DNA of 46,718 nt from the NCBI RefSeq assembly GCF_004571075.1, contig NZ_SPQP01000031.1, positions 1 to 46,718 on the forward strand, written 5' to 3'. This DNA is from Blastococcus sp. TF02A-35 (GTDB lineage Bacteria > Actinomycetota > Actinomycetes > Mycobacteriales > Geodermatophilaceae). How positions within the stretch are numbered: the first letter of the stretch is position 1; each line of letters opens with the position of its first letter. The position numbers and the translations under genes were made by a program. Below, one piece after another: positions 32,269 to 46,718 of this stretch. Under the pieces are notes generated by a model. The model was given only the letters and a program-made list of their open reading frames with translations, was not told the origin of the DNA and made no database searches.

Positions 32269-32291
32269 GAGCGGTCCGGGCTACGGTCGGG

Positions 32292-32354
32292 GGGAGCCGC
32301 CACCACGGCTCCCGGACGAGCGGTGCCGTACCCGGTGTGCGACAAGACGGCGCC
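32292..32354 (+). ncRNA. guanidine-III riboswitch (ykkC-III) for the SMR gene
   Basis: Aptamer at 32312-32354: CCGGACGAG, GGTGCCGT, CCCGG, GACAAGACGGCGCC in the order and spacing of the guanidine-III class. P1: CCGG 32312-32315 with CCGG 32332-32335. Pseudoknot: GGTGCCGT 32322-32329 with ACGGCGCC 32347-32354 (eight pairs, one G-U). The ACAAGACGG strand that binds guanidinium is intact. A hairpin just before it (arms 32292-32299 and 32306-32313, perfect eight pairs) shares two bases with P1 and may compete. The Shine-Dalgarno AGAGGGG (32355-32361) touches the pseudoknot, so control is probably at translation. Confidence 0.93.
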
Positions 32355-32367
32355 AGAGGGGTTCGTC

Positions 32368-39644: not shown

Positions 39645-40652
39645 TCAGCGCACGACGAGGACGTGCTCCCGGCGCGGTACGAACTCGCCGATCACGGGGG
39701 CGCCGGGCACCTCGCCGCCCAGCAGCAGGCCGCCGGAGGTCTGGGCGTCGGCCAGCAGCAGCGCCTCGTCCTCGGAGACGGCGGACAGGTCGGCGTGCGG
39801 CCGCACCCAGTCGAGGTTGCGGCGGGTCCCGCCGGAGACGAAGCCGTCGGCCAGCGCCTCCCGGGCACCTGCCAGGTACGGGACGGCGGCGGCGTCGACC
39901 ACGGCGGTGACCCCGCTGGCGCGCGCCATCTTGTAGAGGTGGCCGAGGAGGCCGAAGCCGGTGACGTCGGTGCCGGCGCGGATCCCGGCGGCGACCGCGG
40001 CCCGGCCGGCGTCGCGGTTGAGCGCGGTCATGGAGGCGACCGCCTCCTCCGACACCTCCCCGGTGGCCTTCATGCGGCTGTTGAGCACGCCGACGCCGAG
40101 CGGCTTGGTCAGGCTGAGCGGCGTGCCGGCCACGGCGCCGGAGTTGGTGATGAGCCGGTCGACGTCGACCACCCCGGTGACCGCCATCCCGTACTTGGGC
40201 TCGGGGTCGTCGATGGAGTGCCCGCCGCCGACGTGGCAGCCGGCCTCCTGCGCGACCTCGAGGCCGCCGCGCAGCACCTCCGCGGCGAGCTCGGCGGGCA
40301 GCACGTCGCGCGGCCAGCCCAGCAGGTTGACCGCGACGACCGGGGTGCCGCCCATGGCGTAGACGTCGGACAGCGCGTTGGCCGCCGCGATCCGGCCGAA
40401 GGTGTGGGCGTCGTCCACGACCGGGGTGAAGAAGTCGGTCGTGAGCACCAGGCCCTGGCCACCGGCGATGCGCACGACCGCTGCGTCGTCGCCGTCGTCG
40501 AGCCCGACCACGAGCTCGGCGGCCGGGTCGACCGGCCCCTGGGCGGTGAGACCGGCGACGACGGCCTCCAGCTCCCCGGGCGGGATCTTGCAGGCGCAGC
40601 CGCCGCCGTGGGCGTACTGGGTGAGCCGGATGCGGGCGGGTGCGGTGGTCAC
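39645..40652 (-). CDS. selD: selenide, water dikinase
   Basis: 335 residues. Makes selenophosphate from selenide and ATP, the selenium donor for Sec-tRNA. Starts TAPARIRLTQYAHGGGCACK: the active-site Cys19 (not Sec) and Lys22 are present. Later GLDDGDDAAVVRI, GGHSIDDPEPKYGMAVTGVV and VTGFGLLGHLYKMA. GTG 40652 follows TAGATT (40660-40665) by seven bases. Downstream of a WYL gene by 21 bases. Confidence 0.97.
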   Translation of the reverse strand: MTTAPARIRLTQYAHGGGCACKIPPGELEAVVAGLTAQGPVDPAAELVVGLDDGDDAAVVRIAGGQGLVLTTDFFTPVVDDAHTFGRIAAANALSDVYAMGGTPVVAVNLLGWPRDVLPAELAAEVLRGGLEVAQEAGCHVGGGHSIDDPEPKYGMAVTGVVDVDRLITNSGAVAGTPLSLTKPLGVGVLNSRMKATGEVSEEAVASMTALNRDAGRAAVAAGIRAGTDVTGFGLLGHLYKMARASGVTAVVDAAAVPYLAGAREALADGFVSGGTRRNLDWVRPHADLSAVSEDEALLLADAQTSGGLLLGGEVPGAPVIGEFVPRREHVLVVR

Positions 40653-40673: not shown

Positions 40674-41258
40674 TCAGGCCAGGCCGCCGGGGAGCAGTCG
40701 GAGCCGGGGGGCCGCCGGTGCCGCCGGCGGGGTGCGGGGGAGGCGCCGCCCGGCCGGGTGGTTCGACGACGGCGGCGTGCCGAGCCCGGGCAGCTCGCGC
40801 CGGGGAGCGGCCTCGTCGGTGAGCCGCACCTCGCTGATCCGGTCGGCCCGGAACCAGCGCAGCGCATCGCGCTCGCGGCACCAGGCCACCAGGAACTCGG
40901 CGGCGCCGTCGCGGACCAGCAGCTGCGGCTCGACGGCGCGCTGGGACCAGCGGTTCTGCCCGTCGCAGTAGTCGACCACCAGGACCCGCCGCTCGGCGAG
41001 CCCGCGGTCGACCTGGCGCCGGACCTCGGCGGCCCGCGCCGCGTCGGCGGCCACCCAGCGGCTGCTCGCCAGCATCTGCGCCCGCCGGCCCGCGTCGGGC
41101 TCCAGGGCGGTGAGCACCTTCTCCAGCGCGGACTGCCCGGCCTCGGCGAACGGGCCGTCGGGCCGGGCCGCCAGCGCGCCGACGACCGCGGCCGCCTCCT
41201 CCGGGGTGAGGTCGACCGGGGGCAGCGGCGCGGGGGTGCGGTGCTCGGTGCGGGTCAC
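40674..41258 (-). CDS. WYL-domain protein without HTH
   Basis: 194 residues from GTG 41258. Starts in the helical linker that normally follows the HTH in WYL regulators (LTPEEAAAVVGALAARPDGP), then the WYL domain (RRVLVVDYCDGQNRWSQRAV, LVAWCRERDALRWFRADRIS), then a Pro/Arg-rich tail. The DNA-binding HTH is missing; upstream sequence is occupied by tRNA-Sec on the other strand. Alternative starts: ATG 41288, GTG 41297. May be a ligand-sensing remnant or act with another protein; linked to selD. Confidence 0.8.
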   Translation of the reverse strand: MTRTEHRTPAPLPPVDLTPEEAAAVVGALAARPDGPFAEAGQSALEKVLTALEPDAGRRAQMLASSRWVAADAARAAEVRRQVDRGLAERRVLVVDYCDGQNRWSQRAVEPQLLVRDGAAEFLVAWCRERDALRWFRADRISEVRLTDEAAPRRELPGLGTPPSSNHPAGRRLPRTPPAAPAAPRLRLLPGGLA

Positions 41259-41298
41259 GGGGGAGAGGCTGGCAGGGCCCTCTGACATTTCCGGCACG

Positions 41299-41311: not shown

Positions 41312-41407
41312 GGAGGCGTCAGGGTGTCTGGTGGCCCCCGCGGCCTCTAAAGCCGACGTGGTCGAGCATCTCGGCCAGGCGGGTTCGATTCCCGTCCGCC
41401 TCCGCCA
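41312..41407 (+). tRNA. selC: selenocysteine tRNA with CUA anticodon (UAG-decoding)
   Basis: 96 bases with encoded CCA (41405-41407). Acceptor 41312-41319/41396-41403: seven pairs plus a U-C mismatch at pair 8. D arm 41322-41328/41333-41339 with the four-base TGGT loop and a long stem (six pairs, one T-C mismatch), the tRNA-Sec hallmark. Anticodon stem CGGC/GCCG, loop CTCTAAA (41345-41351): U33 kept, anticodon CTA at 41347-41349. Long variable arm 41359-41377, eight pairs and a CAT loop. T arm GCGGG-TTCGATT-CCCGT (41379-41395). Discriminator G. With selA, selB and selD nearby this is tRNA-Sec, reading UAG not UGA. Confidence 0.95.
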
Positions 41408-41424: not shown

Positions 41425-42618
41425 TCAGCCCCGGCCGAGGGCCTGCGCCAGGAACGCCGTCACCGTCGCGGCGTACCCGTCCGGGTCGGTGTTCCAGCCG
41501 CGCACGTGCCCGACACCGGGCAGGACCTCCACCCGCACCAGGTCCGGGTCGGCGAGGGCCGCGACCCGCCGGCTGACCGACGCCGGCACCTGGTCGTCGT
41601 CGGCGCCGTGGAGCACCAGCGTCGGGTGGGACCAGGCGGCCGCCCGCTCGGCGTGCTCGGCGGCACCGGCGTCGAGGTCCCCGCGCAGCCCGGCCCACAC
41701 GAGCGCGGCGTCGACGGACGTCGAGCGCAGCAGCGCGGTCGGGATGCCGCGGTTGGCCGCCTGCTGCTCCAGCGTCCGCTCGAGGCTCAGCAGCGGGGAG
41801 TCGTAGACGACGGCGCGCACCGCGTCGGCGTGCTCGCCGCGCTCCAGCACCCCGGCGGCGAGCGCCGCCCCCTGCGAGGTGCCCCAGAGGACGACGTCCT
41901 CCGCCCCCCGGTCGAGCGCGGCCCCGACGGCGGCGTCGAGGTCGGGCCACTCGCGGGTGCCGAAGCCCCCGACGCCGTCGGCCGGGTCGGGCGCGATGCC
42001 GTCGCCGCGGTGGCTGGTCACCAGCACCGGGTGCCCGGCGGAGGTGAGCAGGTCGACGAAGCGTAGCGACTCGGCGAGGGCGGCCGACCGGCCGTGGGCG
42101 TAGACCACCCAGGTGCCGCTCGCCGGTCCGCGTGCGGGGAAGGACCAGGCGGGCAGGTCCGCCCCGACGGTCGTCGCCGTGCCGCCGAGGACCGCGGGGT
42201 CGTCCGGCCACGCGGCCGCGTCCAGCCGGGCGGGTCCCGCCGCGGGGGATACCCGGTCGGTGAGCGGAGCGGCCTGCCGCCGCACGCACGTGCCCGAGCC
42301 GTCGGGGCAGTCCACCTCGCGCACGGCCCCGGCCAGCTGCCAGTAGCCGTCGCCGGTCTGCAGGCCGACGACCGCCAGCCGGGCGTCCGGCTCGTCGGGG
42401 AGGACGACCGCGCCGTCGCCGGCCGCGAGCACCGTCCCCTCCAGCGGCCGCTCGGCCTGCCCCTCCGGGGCCAGCACGACCCCGGCGAACACCCAGCCGA
42501 GGACCAGCGGCGCGGCGGCCAGGAGGACCACCAGGGCGATGCCCACCCGCAGGGGCCACCGCCGGCGGCGGGCCGGGCCCGCGGTCGCGGGCCGCTCGGC
42601 CGCCGCCACCGGCGTCAC
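41425..42618 (-). CDS. membrane-anchored alpha/beta hydrolase
   Basis: 397 residues from GTG 42618. One membrane helix near the N-terminus (VGIALVVLLAAAPLVLGWVF), then an extracytoplasmic alpha/beta hydrolase: nucleophile elbow GTSQGAALAAG, acid in LHGADDDQVPASV, catalytic His in LPGVGHVRGW. Serine esterase/lipase-like, substrate unknown. Start overlaps the hydroxylase stop (GTGA); third gene of the TetR operon. Confidence 0.87.
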   Translation of the reverse strand: MTPVAAAERPATAGPARRRRWPLRVGIALVVLLAAAPLVLGWVFAGVVLAPEGQAERPLEGTVLAAGDGAVVLPDEPDARLAVVGLQTGDGYWQLAGAVREVDCPDGSGTCVRRQAAPLTDRVSPAAGPARLDAAAWPDDPAVLGGTATTVGADLPAWSFPARGPASGTWVVYAHGRSAALAESLRFVDLLTSAGHPVLVTSHRGDGIAPDPADGVGGFGTREWPDLDAAVGAALDRGAEDVVLWGTSQGAALAAGVLERGEHADAVRAVVYDSPLLSLERTLEQQAANRGIPTALLRSTSVDAALVWAGLRGDLDAGAAEHAERAAAWSHPTLVLHGADDDQVPASVSRRVAALADPDLVRVEVLPGVGHVRGWNTDPDGYAATVTAFLAQALGRG

Positions 42619-43532
42619 GGGGCGGTGGCCGACGCCTCGGCAGGCGCGGGCGACCAGCCCGGACCGCGCCACAGCCGGGCGAGCCGGTGGGCCCACCGCC
42701 GGTCGGACCGCATGTCACGGACGATCGCGACGTACTCGTGGGCGAAGACCCAAAACGGGTTGTAGCTCTCCAGCGGCTTGGTGATGCCGTAGCGGACCTT
42801 CTCGACCTCGGGCTCGAAGGTGCCGAACCACCGGTCGAAGACGATGAGGATGCCGCCGTAGTTCTTGTCCAGGTACTGCGGGTTCATCCCGTGGTGCACG
42901 CGGTGGTGGCTCGGGGTGTTGAACACGTACTCGAACGGCCGCCACAGCTTGCCGATCGACTCGGTGTGGATCCAGAACTGGTAGAGCAGGTTGATCGAGC
43001 TGGCCATCACGAACAGCGCCGGGTTCACGCCGACCAGGATGAGCACCGCGCCGAAGGGCCAGGCGGTCAGCGGGGTCCACGCCTGGCGCAGCGCCGTCGA
43101 CAGGTTGTAGTGCTCGCTGGAGTGGTGCACGACGTGCGCCGCCCACAGGAACCGCATCTCGTGCGATGCGCGGTGGAACCAGTAGTAGACGAAGTCCTTG
43201 CCGAGGATGGCCACCGTCCACGCCACCCAGCCCGAGCCCAGGTCGAACGGGGTGATGTTCCAGAGGAACAGGTAGCCGCCCAGGCCGAGCAGCGTCGTGA
43301 CGGCGAGGACGACCTGGCTGCCCAGGCCCATGGTCAGGCTGGTCATCGTGTCCTTGAGGGCGTAGCCCTTCCTGGCCGCCTCCTCCCCGGCGCGGTCGAT
43401 GGCGTCCTCCTTGGCCTCCCGCGTGAGGACGATGCCCTCCAGGAGCATCAGCAGGAAGAAGACCGGGATCGCCCACAGGATCAGGTCGACCTCGGCCATG
43501 TCGGCCAGCGAGCCGCGCAGGAACTGCTCCAC
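42615..43532 (-). CDS. sterol desaturase/fatty acid hydroxylase family protein
   Basis: 305 residues, integral membrane di-iron enzyme. Histidine boxes: KDFVYYWFHRASHEMRFLWA, AAHVVHHSSEHYN, and FNTPSHHRVHHGMNPQYLDK. Inserts oxygen in a lipid or sterol-like substrate. GTG 43532 with AAGGAG nine bases upstream; that site overlaps the TetR stop codon, so translation is coupled. Confidence 0.93.
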   Translation of the reverse strand: MEQFLRGSLADMAEVDLILWAIPVFFLLMLLEGIVLTREAKEDAIDRAGEEAARKGYALKDTMTSLTMGLGSQVVLAVTTLLGLGGYLFLWNITPFDLGSGWVAWTVAILGKDFVYYWFHRASHEMRFLWAAHVVHHSSEHYNLSTALRQAWTPLTAWPFGAVLILVGVNPALFVMASSINLLYQFWIHTESIGKLWRPFEYVFNTPSHHRVHHGMNPQYLDKNYGGILIVFDRWFGTFEPEVEKVRYGITKPLESYNPFWVFAHEYVAIVRDMRSDRRWAHRLARLWRGPGWSPAPAEASATAP

Positions 43533-44243: not shown

Positions 44244-45560
44244 ATGAGCGCCGACCCGCGCCGGCAGGTGCCGCGCACCGACACGCTGCTGGCCGACCCG
44301 CGCCTGGCCGGCGCCGGGGAGCGGCTCGGCCGTGGCCTGGTGAAGAGCGCCGTGCAGCGGGTGCAGCAGCGGGTGCGCGCCGGTGAGGTGAGCGCCGAGG
44401 GCGCCGTCGACGCCGTCCTCGCCGAGCTCCCGGCCACCGCCTCCAGCCTGCGGCCGGTGCTCAACGCCACCGGCGTCGTCGTGCACACCAACCTCGGCCG
44501 GGCGCCGCTGTCGGCCGCCGCGGCCGAGGCGGTCGCGGCCGCCACCGGGACCACCGACGTGGAGCTGGACCTCCGCACCGGACGGCGCGGGCCGCGCGGG
44601 GAGGCGGCGGTCGCGGCGCTCCTGGACGCGGTGCCCGCCGCCGAGGCCGCGATCGTGGTCAACAACTGCGCCGCCGCCCTCGCCCTGGTGGCCACCGCCT
44701 TCGGCCAGGGGCGGGAGCTGGTGCTGGCCCGCGGCGAGCTGGTGGAGATCGGCGACGGCTTCCGCATCCCCGAGCTGCTGGAGAGCACCGGCGCCCGGCT
44801 GCGCGAGGTCGGGACCACCAACCGGGTGACCCTCGCCGACTACCGCGGCGCGCTCGGGCCGCAGACCGGCGCCGTGCTCAAGGTGCACCCGTCGAACTTC
44901 GTCGTCCGCGGGTTCACCCGGGCCGTCGACGTGGGCGAGCTGGCCGCGGCCCTGGAGGGGACGGGCGTCCCGCTCGTGGCCGACGTCGGCTCCGGTCTGC
45001 TGCGGCCCCACCCGGTGCTGCCCGACGAGCCGGACCTGCAGACCACGCTCGCCGCCGGCGCGGACCTGGTGCTGGCCAGCGGGGACAAGCTCCTCGGCGG
45101 GCCGCAGGCCGGCCTGGTCCTCGGCCGCGCCGAGCTCGTGCAGCGGCTGCGCCGGCACCCGCTGTACCGGGCGCTGCGCGTGGACAAGACGACGCTGGCC
45201 GCGCTCGAGGCCACGCTGCGCGGCCCGCTGCCGCCGGTGCAGGAGATGCTCGCCGCCTCCGCCGAGGGGCTGCGCGCCCGCGCCGGCGCGCTGGCCGCCC
45301 GGCTGGCCGGCGCCGGTGTGGACGCCGTCGCGGTCGACGCCGACTCCCGGGTCGGCGGGGGCGGGGCGCCCGAGCACCCGCTCCCCGGTGCGGCGGTCTC
45401 GCTGCCCCCGGCCTTCGCCGAGCCGCTGCGGCTGGGCGCCCGGCCCGTCGTGGGCTACCTCGAGGACGGCCGCACCCTGCTCAACCTGCGCAGCGTGCCG
45501 CCGGCCGCCGACGACGCCCTCGCCGACGCCGTGCTGGAGGTGGCCCGCGCGTGGACGTGA
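44244..45560 (+). CDS. selA: L-seryl-tRNA(Sec) selenium transferase
   Basis: 438 residues. PLP enzyme converting Ser-tRNA(Sec) to Sec-tRNA(Sec). N-terminal helical domain (DPRRQVPRTDTLLADPRLAG), ATGVVVHTNLGRAPL, LEVGTTN-like REVGTTNRVTLADYRGAL, KVHPSNFVVRGFT, and PLP lysine in LASGDKLLGGPQAG near residue 282. ATG 44244 has TACGCT (44230-44235) eight bases upstream. Stop overlaps selB. Confidence 0.97.
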   Translation: MSADPRRQVPRTDTLLADPRLAGAGERLGRGLVKSAVQRVQQRVRAGEVSAEGAVDAVLAELPATASSLRPVLNATGVVVHTNLGRAPLSAAAAEAVAAATGTTDVELDLRTGRRGPRGEAAVAALLDAVPAAEAAIVVNNCAAALALVATAFGQGRELVLARGELVEIGDGFRIPELLESTGARLREVGTTNRVTLADYRGALGPQTGAVLKVHPSNFVVRGFTRAVDVGELAAALEGTGVPLVADVGSGLLRPHPVLPDEPDLQTTLAAGADLVLASGDKLLGGPQAGLVLGRAELVQRLRRHPLYRALRVDKTTLAALEATLRGPLPPVQEMLAASAEGLRARAGALAARLAGAGVDAVAVDADSRVGGGGAPEHPLPGAAVSLPPAFAEPLRLGARPVVGYLEDGRTLLNLRSVPPAADDALADAVLEVARAWT

Positions 45561-46598
45561 TCGCCACGGCGGGGCACGTCGACCACGGCAAGTCCGCGCT
45601 GGTCCGCGCGCTCACCGGCATGGAGCCCGACCGCTGGGCCGAGGAGCGCCGCCGCGGGCTGACCATCGACCTCGGCTTCGCCTGGACCACGCTCCCCTCG
45701 GGCCGCCGGCTCGCCGTGGTCGACGTCCCGGGGCACGAGCGGTTCGTCGGCAACATGCTCGCGGGCGTCGGCTCGGTGCCCGCGGCACTGGTCGTGGTGG
45801 CGGCGGACGACGGCTGGTCGGCCCAGACCGCCGAGCACGTCGCCGTCCTCGACGCCCTCGGGGTGCGGCACGCGCTGCTCGCCGTCACCAAGTCCGACCT
45901 GGCCGACGCCGCACCCGTGCTCGCCGACGTGCGCGAGCGCCTCGCCGCCACCTCGATGGGCGACGTCCACGGCATCGCGGTGAGCTCGGTGACCGGCGCG
46001 GGATTGCCGCAGCTGACCACTGCCCTGGAGGCCCTCCTGGCCGGGCTGCCCGCGCCGGACGCCGCCGCGCCGGTCCGGCTGTGGATCGACCGCGCCTTCA
46101 CGATCACCGGCGCCGGCACCGTCGTCACCGGCACCCTCGCCGCCGGCTCGGTCACCGCCGGGGACCGGTTCCTGCTCGGGGACCGGGAGGTCGCCGTCCG
46201 GGGCGTCCACTCCCTGGGCGAGCCGGTCGAGCGCGCCGCGGCGACCGCCCGGGTGGCGCTGAACCTGCGGGGCGTCTCGGTCGACGACATCTCCCGCGGC
46301 GACGCGCTGCTCACCCCGGGCGCCTTCCGGGCCACCGACGTCGTCGACCTGACCCTCGACGCCGAGCCGGACGGCCAGCTGCCCGCCGAGCCGGTGGTGC
46401 ACGTCGGGTCGGCCACCGTGGGCGCCCGCCTCCGCCCGCTCGACGGTGCCGCCGTGCGGCTGCGCCTCACCCGGCCGCTGCCGCTCCGGGTCGGCGACCG
46501 GCTGCTGCTGCGCGACCCCGGCGCGCGCCGCGTGCTCGGTGCCGACGTCCGCGACGTCGACCCGCCGGAGCTGCGCCGCCGTGGCGCCGCCCGGCAGC
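45551..46598 (+). CDS. selB: selenocysteine elongation factor SelB (3' end missing)
   Basis: GTPase that brings Sec-tRNA to the ribosome at SECIS-marked codons. G1 ATAGHVDHGKSALVRALTG, RGLTIDLGFAW, DVPGHERFVGNML, TKSD; domain II/III with FTITGAGTVVTGTLAAG. About 350 residues, cut just after DVRDVDPPELRRRGAARQ. The C-terminal winged-helix SECIS-binding domains are absent because the contig ends. GTG 45551 overlaps selA by ten bases; GTG 45557 (GTGA junction) is the alternative start. In this system SelB must act at UAG. Confidence 0.93.
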
Positions 46599-46718
46599 GG
46601 GTGCGGGGCGCCGAAGAAGGCCTGCAGGCAGATGAACAGGCCGCACGCGATGAGGAACGGCGGGGCGATGCGCGCCCAGCGGAGGCGCAGGAAGCGCCGG
46701 GCCGCCACGGAGCCGGAC
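46599..46718 (-). other. membrane protein fragment, probably chimeric contig end
   Basis: On the plus strand the selB frame stays open, but codons turn AT-ending (GAA, GAT, GCA), unlike the rest. On the minus strand the same bases encode, with GC-ending codons, a basic start and one helix (RWARIAPPFLIACGLFICLQ), then FFGAPHPLP. So the coding strand flips near 46598, in the middle of selB; an assembly join is inferred. Family unknown. Confidence 0.45.

Follow-up and report, generated by a model that had tools for sequence, protein, structure and literature searches.

Bacterial selenocysteine (Sec) insertion is represented by the selABCD system of Escherichia coli, in which the codon is UGA and the anticodon of the dedicated tRNA-Sec is UCA. 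The Blastococcus-like bacterium analysed here shares with that system the tRNA-Sec fold, SelA, SelB and SelD, and a SECIS hairpin right after the codon, but its anticodon is CUA and its Sec codon appears to be UAG. Pyrrolysine decoding likewise reads the amber stop with a CUA tRNA, although the tRNA considered here is of a different family and has sel genes adjacent to it. The closest precedent comes from the family Geodermatophilaceae itself: Mukai et al. (2016, Angew Chem) reportedly used 75Se labelling or mass spectrometry to confirm that Geodermatophilus and Blastococcus insert Sec at UAG. The present bacterium shares with that precedent the family, the CUA anticodon, a formate dehydrogenase (FDH) gene with a Sec-TAG codon and a bacterial SECIS, and differs from it in having no UGSC match.

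In the portion of PMC5330540 available to us, three Geodermatophilaceae genomes with a CUA tRNA-Sec are reported and an earlier report is credited, the latter being described as dealing with CUA tRNA-Sec in Geodermatophilaceae and with FDH and UGSC selenoproteins; the same portion adds, for B. saxobsidens DD2, an AhpC with Sec encoded by TAG, and describes in general terms genomes that hold several tRNA-Sec genes. The accessible text of PMC8124441 and PMC10778597 mentions UAG among other Sec codons, that of PMC7609411 mentions tRNA-Sec with sense anticodons, and a 2026 review (PMC13188914), in its accessible text, brings up UAG solely as a stop or in connection with engineered systems; PMC5756416 merely cites Mukai 2016. 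UAG-encoded Sec in Geodermatophilaceae is already published, and our host is a further genome. A preliminary description of this DNA, which had pointed to Mukai 2016 for such recoding in Geodermatophilus and Blastococcus, was right in substance, as far as the available portion of PMC5330540 goes.

Results

A tRNA-Sec gene with a CUA anticodon

The window, by which we mean the whole stretch of DNA analysed (46,718 nucleotides), is contig C26 of a Blastococcus-like draft genome (G000, the host) of 3.93 Mb in 87 contigs, rated 99.99% complete. Features with their coordinates are collected in Table 1.

Table 1. Positions of the features discussed; coordinates without a prefix refer to the window, the others to the genome (G), contig (C) or locus (L) named.
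Feature	Position	Strand	Basis and remarks
selD, selenophosphate synthetase, complete, no in-frame stop (Cys form)	39645..40652	-	NCBIfam TIGR00476, 386.5 bits, cut-off 125
WYL-domain gene, not known as needed for Sec insertion	40674..41297	-	Pfam WYL
selC, tRNA-Sec with CUA anticodon, genomic CCA end	41312..41407	+	Rfam RF01852 and ARAGORN
Anticodon CTA (CUA), pairs with UAG	41347..41349	+	Sequence and ARAGORN anticodon position 36
Alpha/beta hydrolase gene, between selC and selA	41425..42696	-	Pfam Hydrolase_4, spacing comparison
selA, Sec synthase, complete	44244..45560	+	Pfam SelA PF03841, E 4.6e-99; Se-cys_synth_N
selB, 5' part only	45551..46601	+	Pfam GTP_EFTU, Beta-barrel_SelB; likeness to relatives stops at 46601
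selB, 3' part	G000:C3:93744-94379		End of contig C3 (94,414 bases)
fdhA Sec codon TAG	G000:C13 55554-55552	-	Read-through translation
UCA-only genomes G070, G066, G069, G072, G074, G068, G073	Loci L019-L024, L027		
UCA tRNA-Sec and AhpD-like gene	L078:1169-2157 (G058:C17)		
CUA tRNA-Sec and grdB/grdA with TAG	L248:4895-15693 (G112:C6, JAUNNF010000009.1)		

Rfam assigns the tRNA of the window to tRNA-Sec (RF01852; 65.8 bits, E 2.5e-11), above the gathering score of 47, and the covariance-model match spans all 91 positions; 7 of the 8 acceptor-stem pairs form, followed by GCCA. The UCA anticodon usual for RF01852 is absent and CUA stands in its place. Both the tRNA-Sec fold and the CTA rather than TCA anticodon, as claimed in the preliminary description, are borne out, the former by the RF01852 score and the latter by the sequence and ARAGORN. 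UCA is usual for tRNA-Sec and does not define it, and variants have been published (PMC5330540, in its available portion). Because a tRNA-Sec match (E <= 1e-9) occurs in 108 of 112 Geodermatophilaceae genomes, a chance match is not credible.

ARAGORN, which finds this single tRNA in the window with anticodon cta, labels it tRNA-Pyl. Taken at face value, the label and the CUA anticodon would make it a pyrrolysine tRNA and UAG a pyrrolysine codon. We rejected that assignment on the strength of the tRNA-Sec covariance model and the adjoining selA, selB and selD, and regard it as exceedingly unlikely, the more so as the TAG of fdhA sits at a one-residue gap (see below). For annotation it matters that ARAGORN gives CUA tRNA-Sec genes this label.

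A tRNA-Sec with UCA elsewhere in the genome would speak against UAG as the Sec codon, as the preliminary description had pointed out; no such gene was found in the host draft genome by an RF01852 search of all contigs together with ARAGORN. ARAGORN identifies the seven further RF01852 matches in the host as tRNAs for Ser (three), Met (two), Tyr and Leu (one each); one of them scored above the cut-off (49.7 bits) and was discarded as a second tRNA-Sec, since ARAGORN reads it as a tRNA-Ser with anticodon tga.

The sel genes around the tRNA

selA, selB and selD had been described as adjacent to the tRNA; this holds for selA and selD, both complete, but selB is incomplete in the window. Its last 117 bases (46602-46718) have no match to selB of relatives, and contig C3, which carries the 3' part, ends in a 65-base tail that is also unlike selB of relatives, leaving ~87 bases of selB unaccounted for between the contigs. 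selB is whole in two near relatives of the host. An assembly break is the simplest explanation for the split gene, an insertion inactivating selB in the host strain being a possible second one. The Cys of the window selD stands at what we take to be the usual Sec/Cys site of its family.

The gap between selC and selA measures 2838 bases. Among 120 CUA locus entries, selA lies within 200 bases of the tRNA in 101 and more than 2000 bases away only in the window, L185 and L109, in a count that includes overlapping loci repeatedly and short loci that cannot show long gaps. The layout, which had been suggested as possibly new, amounts to a local variation. Elsewhere in the window, a Guanidine-III riboswitch occurs at 32291-32356 (+; 63.7 bits), and further Guanidine-III riboswitches lie near tRNA-Sec loci L185 and L189.

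A formate dehydrogenase gene with an in-frame TAG

An fdhA-type search of the host genome gave 12 matches, one of which, on contig C13, has an in-frame stop; this stop is TAG, in the context IENQARI-TAG-HSATVPGLGASFGRGG. The reading frame is open on both sides, and translation through the TAG yields ...IENQARI-TAG-HSATVPGLGASFGRGGATNF... up to a final TGA stop. The halves of the protein match NCBIfam NF041513 (formate_DH_Act, actinobacterial formate dehydrogenase) at positions 2-185 and 187-1067; since position 186 alone is skipped, the TAG corresponds to exactly one residue. The preliminary description had looked to an fdhA with an in-frame TAG and a SECIS hairpin for support and to an fdhA with TGA at the Sec codon for contradiction. 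The gene is present with a hairpin loop GGUCU, and the codon is TAG. The central claim, that UAG encodes Sec, is thus supported by a TAG at the NF041513 gap, a predicted SECIS hairpin and a genome search that found no UCA tRNA-Sec.

fdhA was the only selenoprotein gene found in the host genome. UGSC gave no host match, either in a first search that was also silent in control genomes or in a repeat search that did match 54 of the 112 family genomes, and no stop interrupts the host's four AhpC-family matches. Across 23 genomes of the genus, the PF00578 matches listed likewise contain no in-frame stop for a Sec-AhpC, a weak negative in that the published DD2 case was not reproduced.

A SECIS hairpin shared by TAG and TGA sites

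The hairpin GGTGCCC-GGTCT-GGGTGCC begins 11 bases past the host fdhA TAG, and its loop, GGUCU, is presumably the same as that of the E. coli fdhF SECIS. At the TAG sites compared (22 distinct), pairing holds in 153 of 154 stem cells, 21 sites are fully paired, and the loop is GGTCT in every one. The TGA sites (18 distinct, taken from other families) reach 116 of 126 cells, with 8 sites fully paired, and have loops GGTCT, AGTTT or AGTCT. Cys (TGC) homologues (n = 4) pair in 15 of 28 stem cells and none is fully paired. Sliding the register lowers pairing at TAG and TGA sites in all six displacements, whereas for the four Cys homologues one slid register pairs better than the true one (21 against 15 of 28). 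One stem pair varies among TAG sites, occurring as GT, CG, TA or GC. Two overlapping 56-base stretches of fdhA fold with energies that do not stand out against shuffles (z 0.12 and -1.30); conservation and covariation carry the case for the hairpin. Judged by these alignments, with a Cys comparison as small as n = 4, the putative hairpin goes with Sec irrespective of the stop codon.

Distribution in the family and the order

ARAGORN was run on 110 loci covering all 108 genomes with a tRNA-Sec match: 100 are CUA-only, 7 are UCA-only and 1 has both. The UCA-only genomes carry the group codes g5, g6 and g7 and are 76-98% complete with 2-5% contamination; the fdhA segment has no match in any of the seven. 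It matches 100 of the 112 family genomes (E <= 1e-25), and among the matches listed, 98 genomes have one that spans the Sec site with one TAG, the exact codon position having been checked in the subset of fetched loci. G033 and G079 have partial fdhA matches only; in G079 (L091, G079:C12:812500-817500), ~94 bases are gone at the Sec/SECIS region, through either a deletion or an assembly error. For the wider order, 397 genomes were drawn, and the matches listed from outside the family (66 rows, counted by eye) comprise 62 with TGA, 4 without a stop and none with TAG.

These distributions bear on two alternatives. The first blames the CUA anticodon on faulty sequencing or assembly, as a draft in 87 contigs might allow; yet a CUA tRNA-Sec occurs in 100 other family genomes, and the matching TAG of the host lies in fdhA on a separate contig (C13), leaving this explanation a practically negligible chance. 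The second is that the tRNA is retired from Sec insertion in the host strain and fdhA is becoming a pseudogene, to which the selB broken at a contig junction of the host assembly lends some substance. Against it stand CUA in 101 of the 108 family genomes with tRNA-Sec, TAG in 98 of the 98 genomes whose listed fdhA match spans the site, the host fdhA frame that is open either side of the TAG with both halves matching NF041513, and SECIS pairs kept by changes on both sides of the stem. We judge retirement highly unlikely and very probably the window carries the selC of a Geodermatophilaceae bacterium whose Sec codon is UAG.

In a quick fdhA tree of 67 rows (45 TAG, 18 TGA and 4 TGC), one branch (SH-aLRT 93) has the TAG rows all to one side, and a single TGA-to-TAG change is needed; many inner branches are weak. 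In the selA tree, CUA is not one clade (two changes) and the CUA rows are unresolved around a very long outgroup; SelA from the UCA-only genomes (4 usable) forms a single group (96/100). A single switch from UGA to UAG is probable for the family, with the anticodon and the codon changed and the SECIS kept.

A pattern scan of named genomes returned 95 stretches, nearly all labelled Geodermatophilaceae; ARAGORN was run on 21 and Rfam on 22 of them, and the others were classed by label and pattern. L109 (SPQJ01000003.1) bears the name Bacillus sp. AZ43 (unverified organism) but belongs to Geodermatophilaceae, since over 3,092 bases it does not differ from the family genome G029, and L146 is treated as the same genome as G060 because their fdhA matches coincide. 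L115, L135, L142 and L171 were dropped for want of a tRNA-Sec match in Rfam, L190 (an archaeal MAG) as an ordinary tRNA by Rfam, and L178 because its only tRNA is cut by the contig edge. The CUA tRNA in the Jatrophihabitans MAG bin.57 (L119) is nearly the same as one of Modestobacter, whereas the two fdhA matches of that genome have TGA; the MAG was not counted as an independent switch, the contig being probably misbinned. In Blastococcus endophyticus (NZ_JABGCI010000003.1; L177, L192), two CUA tRNA-Sec pattern matches lie ~59 kb apart on a single contig, the second scoring 64.2 bits in Rfam, and a second tRNA-Sec copy also appears in G036.

Two Sec tRNAs in Geodermatophilus sp. LHW52908

The genome with both anticodons, G058, is Geodermatophilus sp. 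LHW52908, its 6,001 overlapping bases being identical to NZ_QVQH01000019.1. Its CUA tRNA-Sec is of the native type, the stretch that carries it also gives a full-length selB match, and TAG occurs in both fdhA and a UGSC gene. Contig C17 of this genome carries a second tRNA-Sec with a UCA anticodon (81.8 bits); at a distance of 315 bases lies an AhpD-like gene interrupted in frame by TGA (...LNRCFY-TGA-MESHAEF...), with a hairpin 3' of the TGA. The AhpD-like protein, which falls just under the threshold of the Pfam carboxymuconolactone decarboxylase family (22.1 bits against 23), has matches in 12 of the 397 order genomes (E <= 1e-20). LHW52908 is the only one with a stop; at the aligned position, all 11 others have Cys, the second of a CxxC motif.

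The island on C17 has a third-position GC below that of the remaining contig and is surrounded by transposase-like ORFs (by eye), and the UCA tRNA-Sec was probably acquired. The contig itself looks chromosomal, since it also bears a chlorite dismutase-family gene and many high-GC3 ORFs; neither selA nor selB has a match on C17. Two Sec codons are thus probably in use in one cell, as predicted from a single assembly, and one SelA and SelB would presumably serve both.

An apparent independent switch in a Coriobacteriia MAG

A Coriobacteriia MAG (L182/G112; 35% GC in 8 kb) has a CUA tRNA-Sec of 64.2 bits, and the contig that carries it also holds selA, selB and selD (TIGR00474, TIGR00475 and TIGR00476, all above cut-off) together with grdB and grdA, each interrupted by TAG (STECFV-TAG-TSAGAMDLENQ and VILTST-TAG-GTCTRCG, respectively). 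GrdB aligns in two parts to TIGR01918 (1-345 and 347-431), GrdA likewise to NF040748 (1-40 and 42-151), and one residue is missing in each. The hairpins 3' of both TAGs are weak by folding. Searching this genome and 40 relatives gave tRNA-Sec matches in 31 of 41 genomes; 24 of the 30 loci returned were run in ARAGORN, which recognised 20 as tRNA-Sec, 19 with UCA plus the CUA gene of the MAG. A second RF01852 match in the MAG is sub-threshold, at 46.4 bits.

Long frames on the contig end in TAA 28 times, TAG 13 times and TGA 4 times, counts that include chance frames and the grdB Sec codon. With TGA the rarest of the three, the move to UAG there was not towards the rarest stop. UGA as a Trp codon was considered and set aside: the long frames contain no TGA, and ~3 frames that end in TGA are gene-like (by eye). 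From its gene content, this bacterium apparently switched to UAG independently of Geodermatophilaceae.

Discussion

By analogy with established bacterial Sec biology, SerRS would charge the CUA tRNA-Sec with serine, SelA and selenophosphate from SelD would convert it to Sec-tRNA, and SelB would bind the SECIS 3' of the TAG and deliver Sec there. Since UAG is still an ordinary stop in the host (it ends ORF 720-2768 and selB itself), context must decide recoding: TAG would be recoded only where a SECIS follows, and other TAGs would still end genes. Lower competition with release factor 2 may be hypothesised as a reason to leave UGA. Among the window ORFs with high third-position GC (n = 15, hand-picked), 14 end in TGA and 1 in TAG. 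The simple idea that the rarest stop is always the one taken over by Sec does not accommodate both apparently independent switches: in the high-GC host, genes of the window end mostly in TGA, and on the low-GC Coriobacteriia contig TGA is the rarest stop.

Beyond what we found in print, the analysis adds a survey of the whole family and, provisionally, two cases: the dual-tRNA genome of LHW52908 and the apparent switch in Coriobacteriia. Neither the genera with UCA alone nor the two-tRNA genome is mentioned in the available portion of PMC5330540. No prior report of UAG-Sec in Coriobacteriia or of a two-codon genome was found in a literature search that covered few subscription papers, so that their novelty is provisional. 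Taken jointly, that LHW52908 reads both UAG and UGA as Sec and that a Coriobacteriia bacterium moved to UAG independently is a reading towards which we lean with fair confidence.

Geodermatophilaceae would offer a natural case of one amino acid moved between stop codons with the mRNA signal unmoved, and with unswitched relatives for comparison. LHW52908 makes it testable (i) whether a single SelB works with both Sec tRNAs, and (ii) whether a UGA-Sec gene of foreign origin has to bring its own tRNA in order to persist in a UAG-Sec host. If these readings are true, one Sec codon can be exchanged for another, and a second one can even be added.
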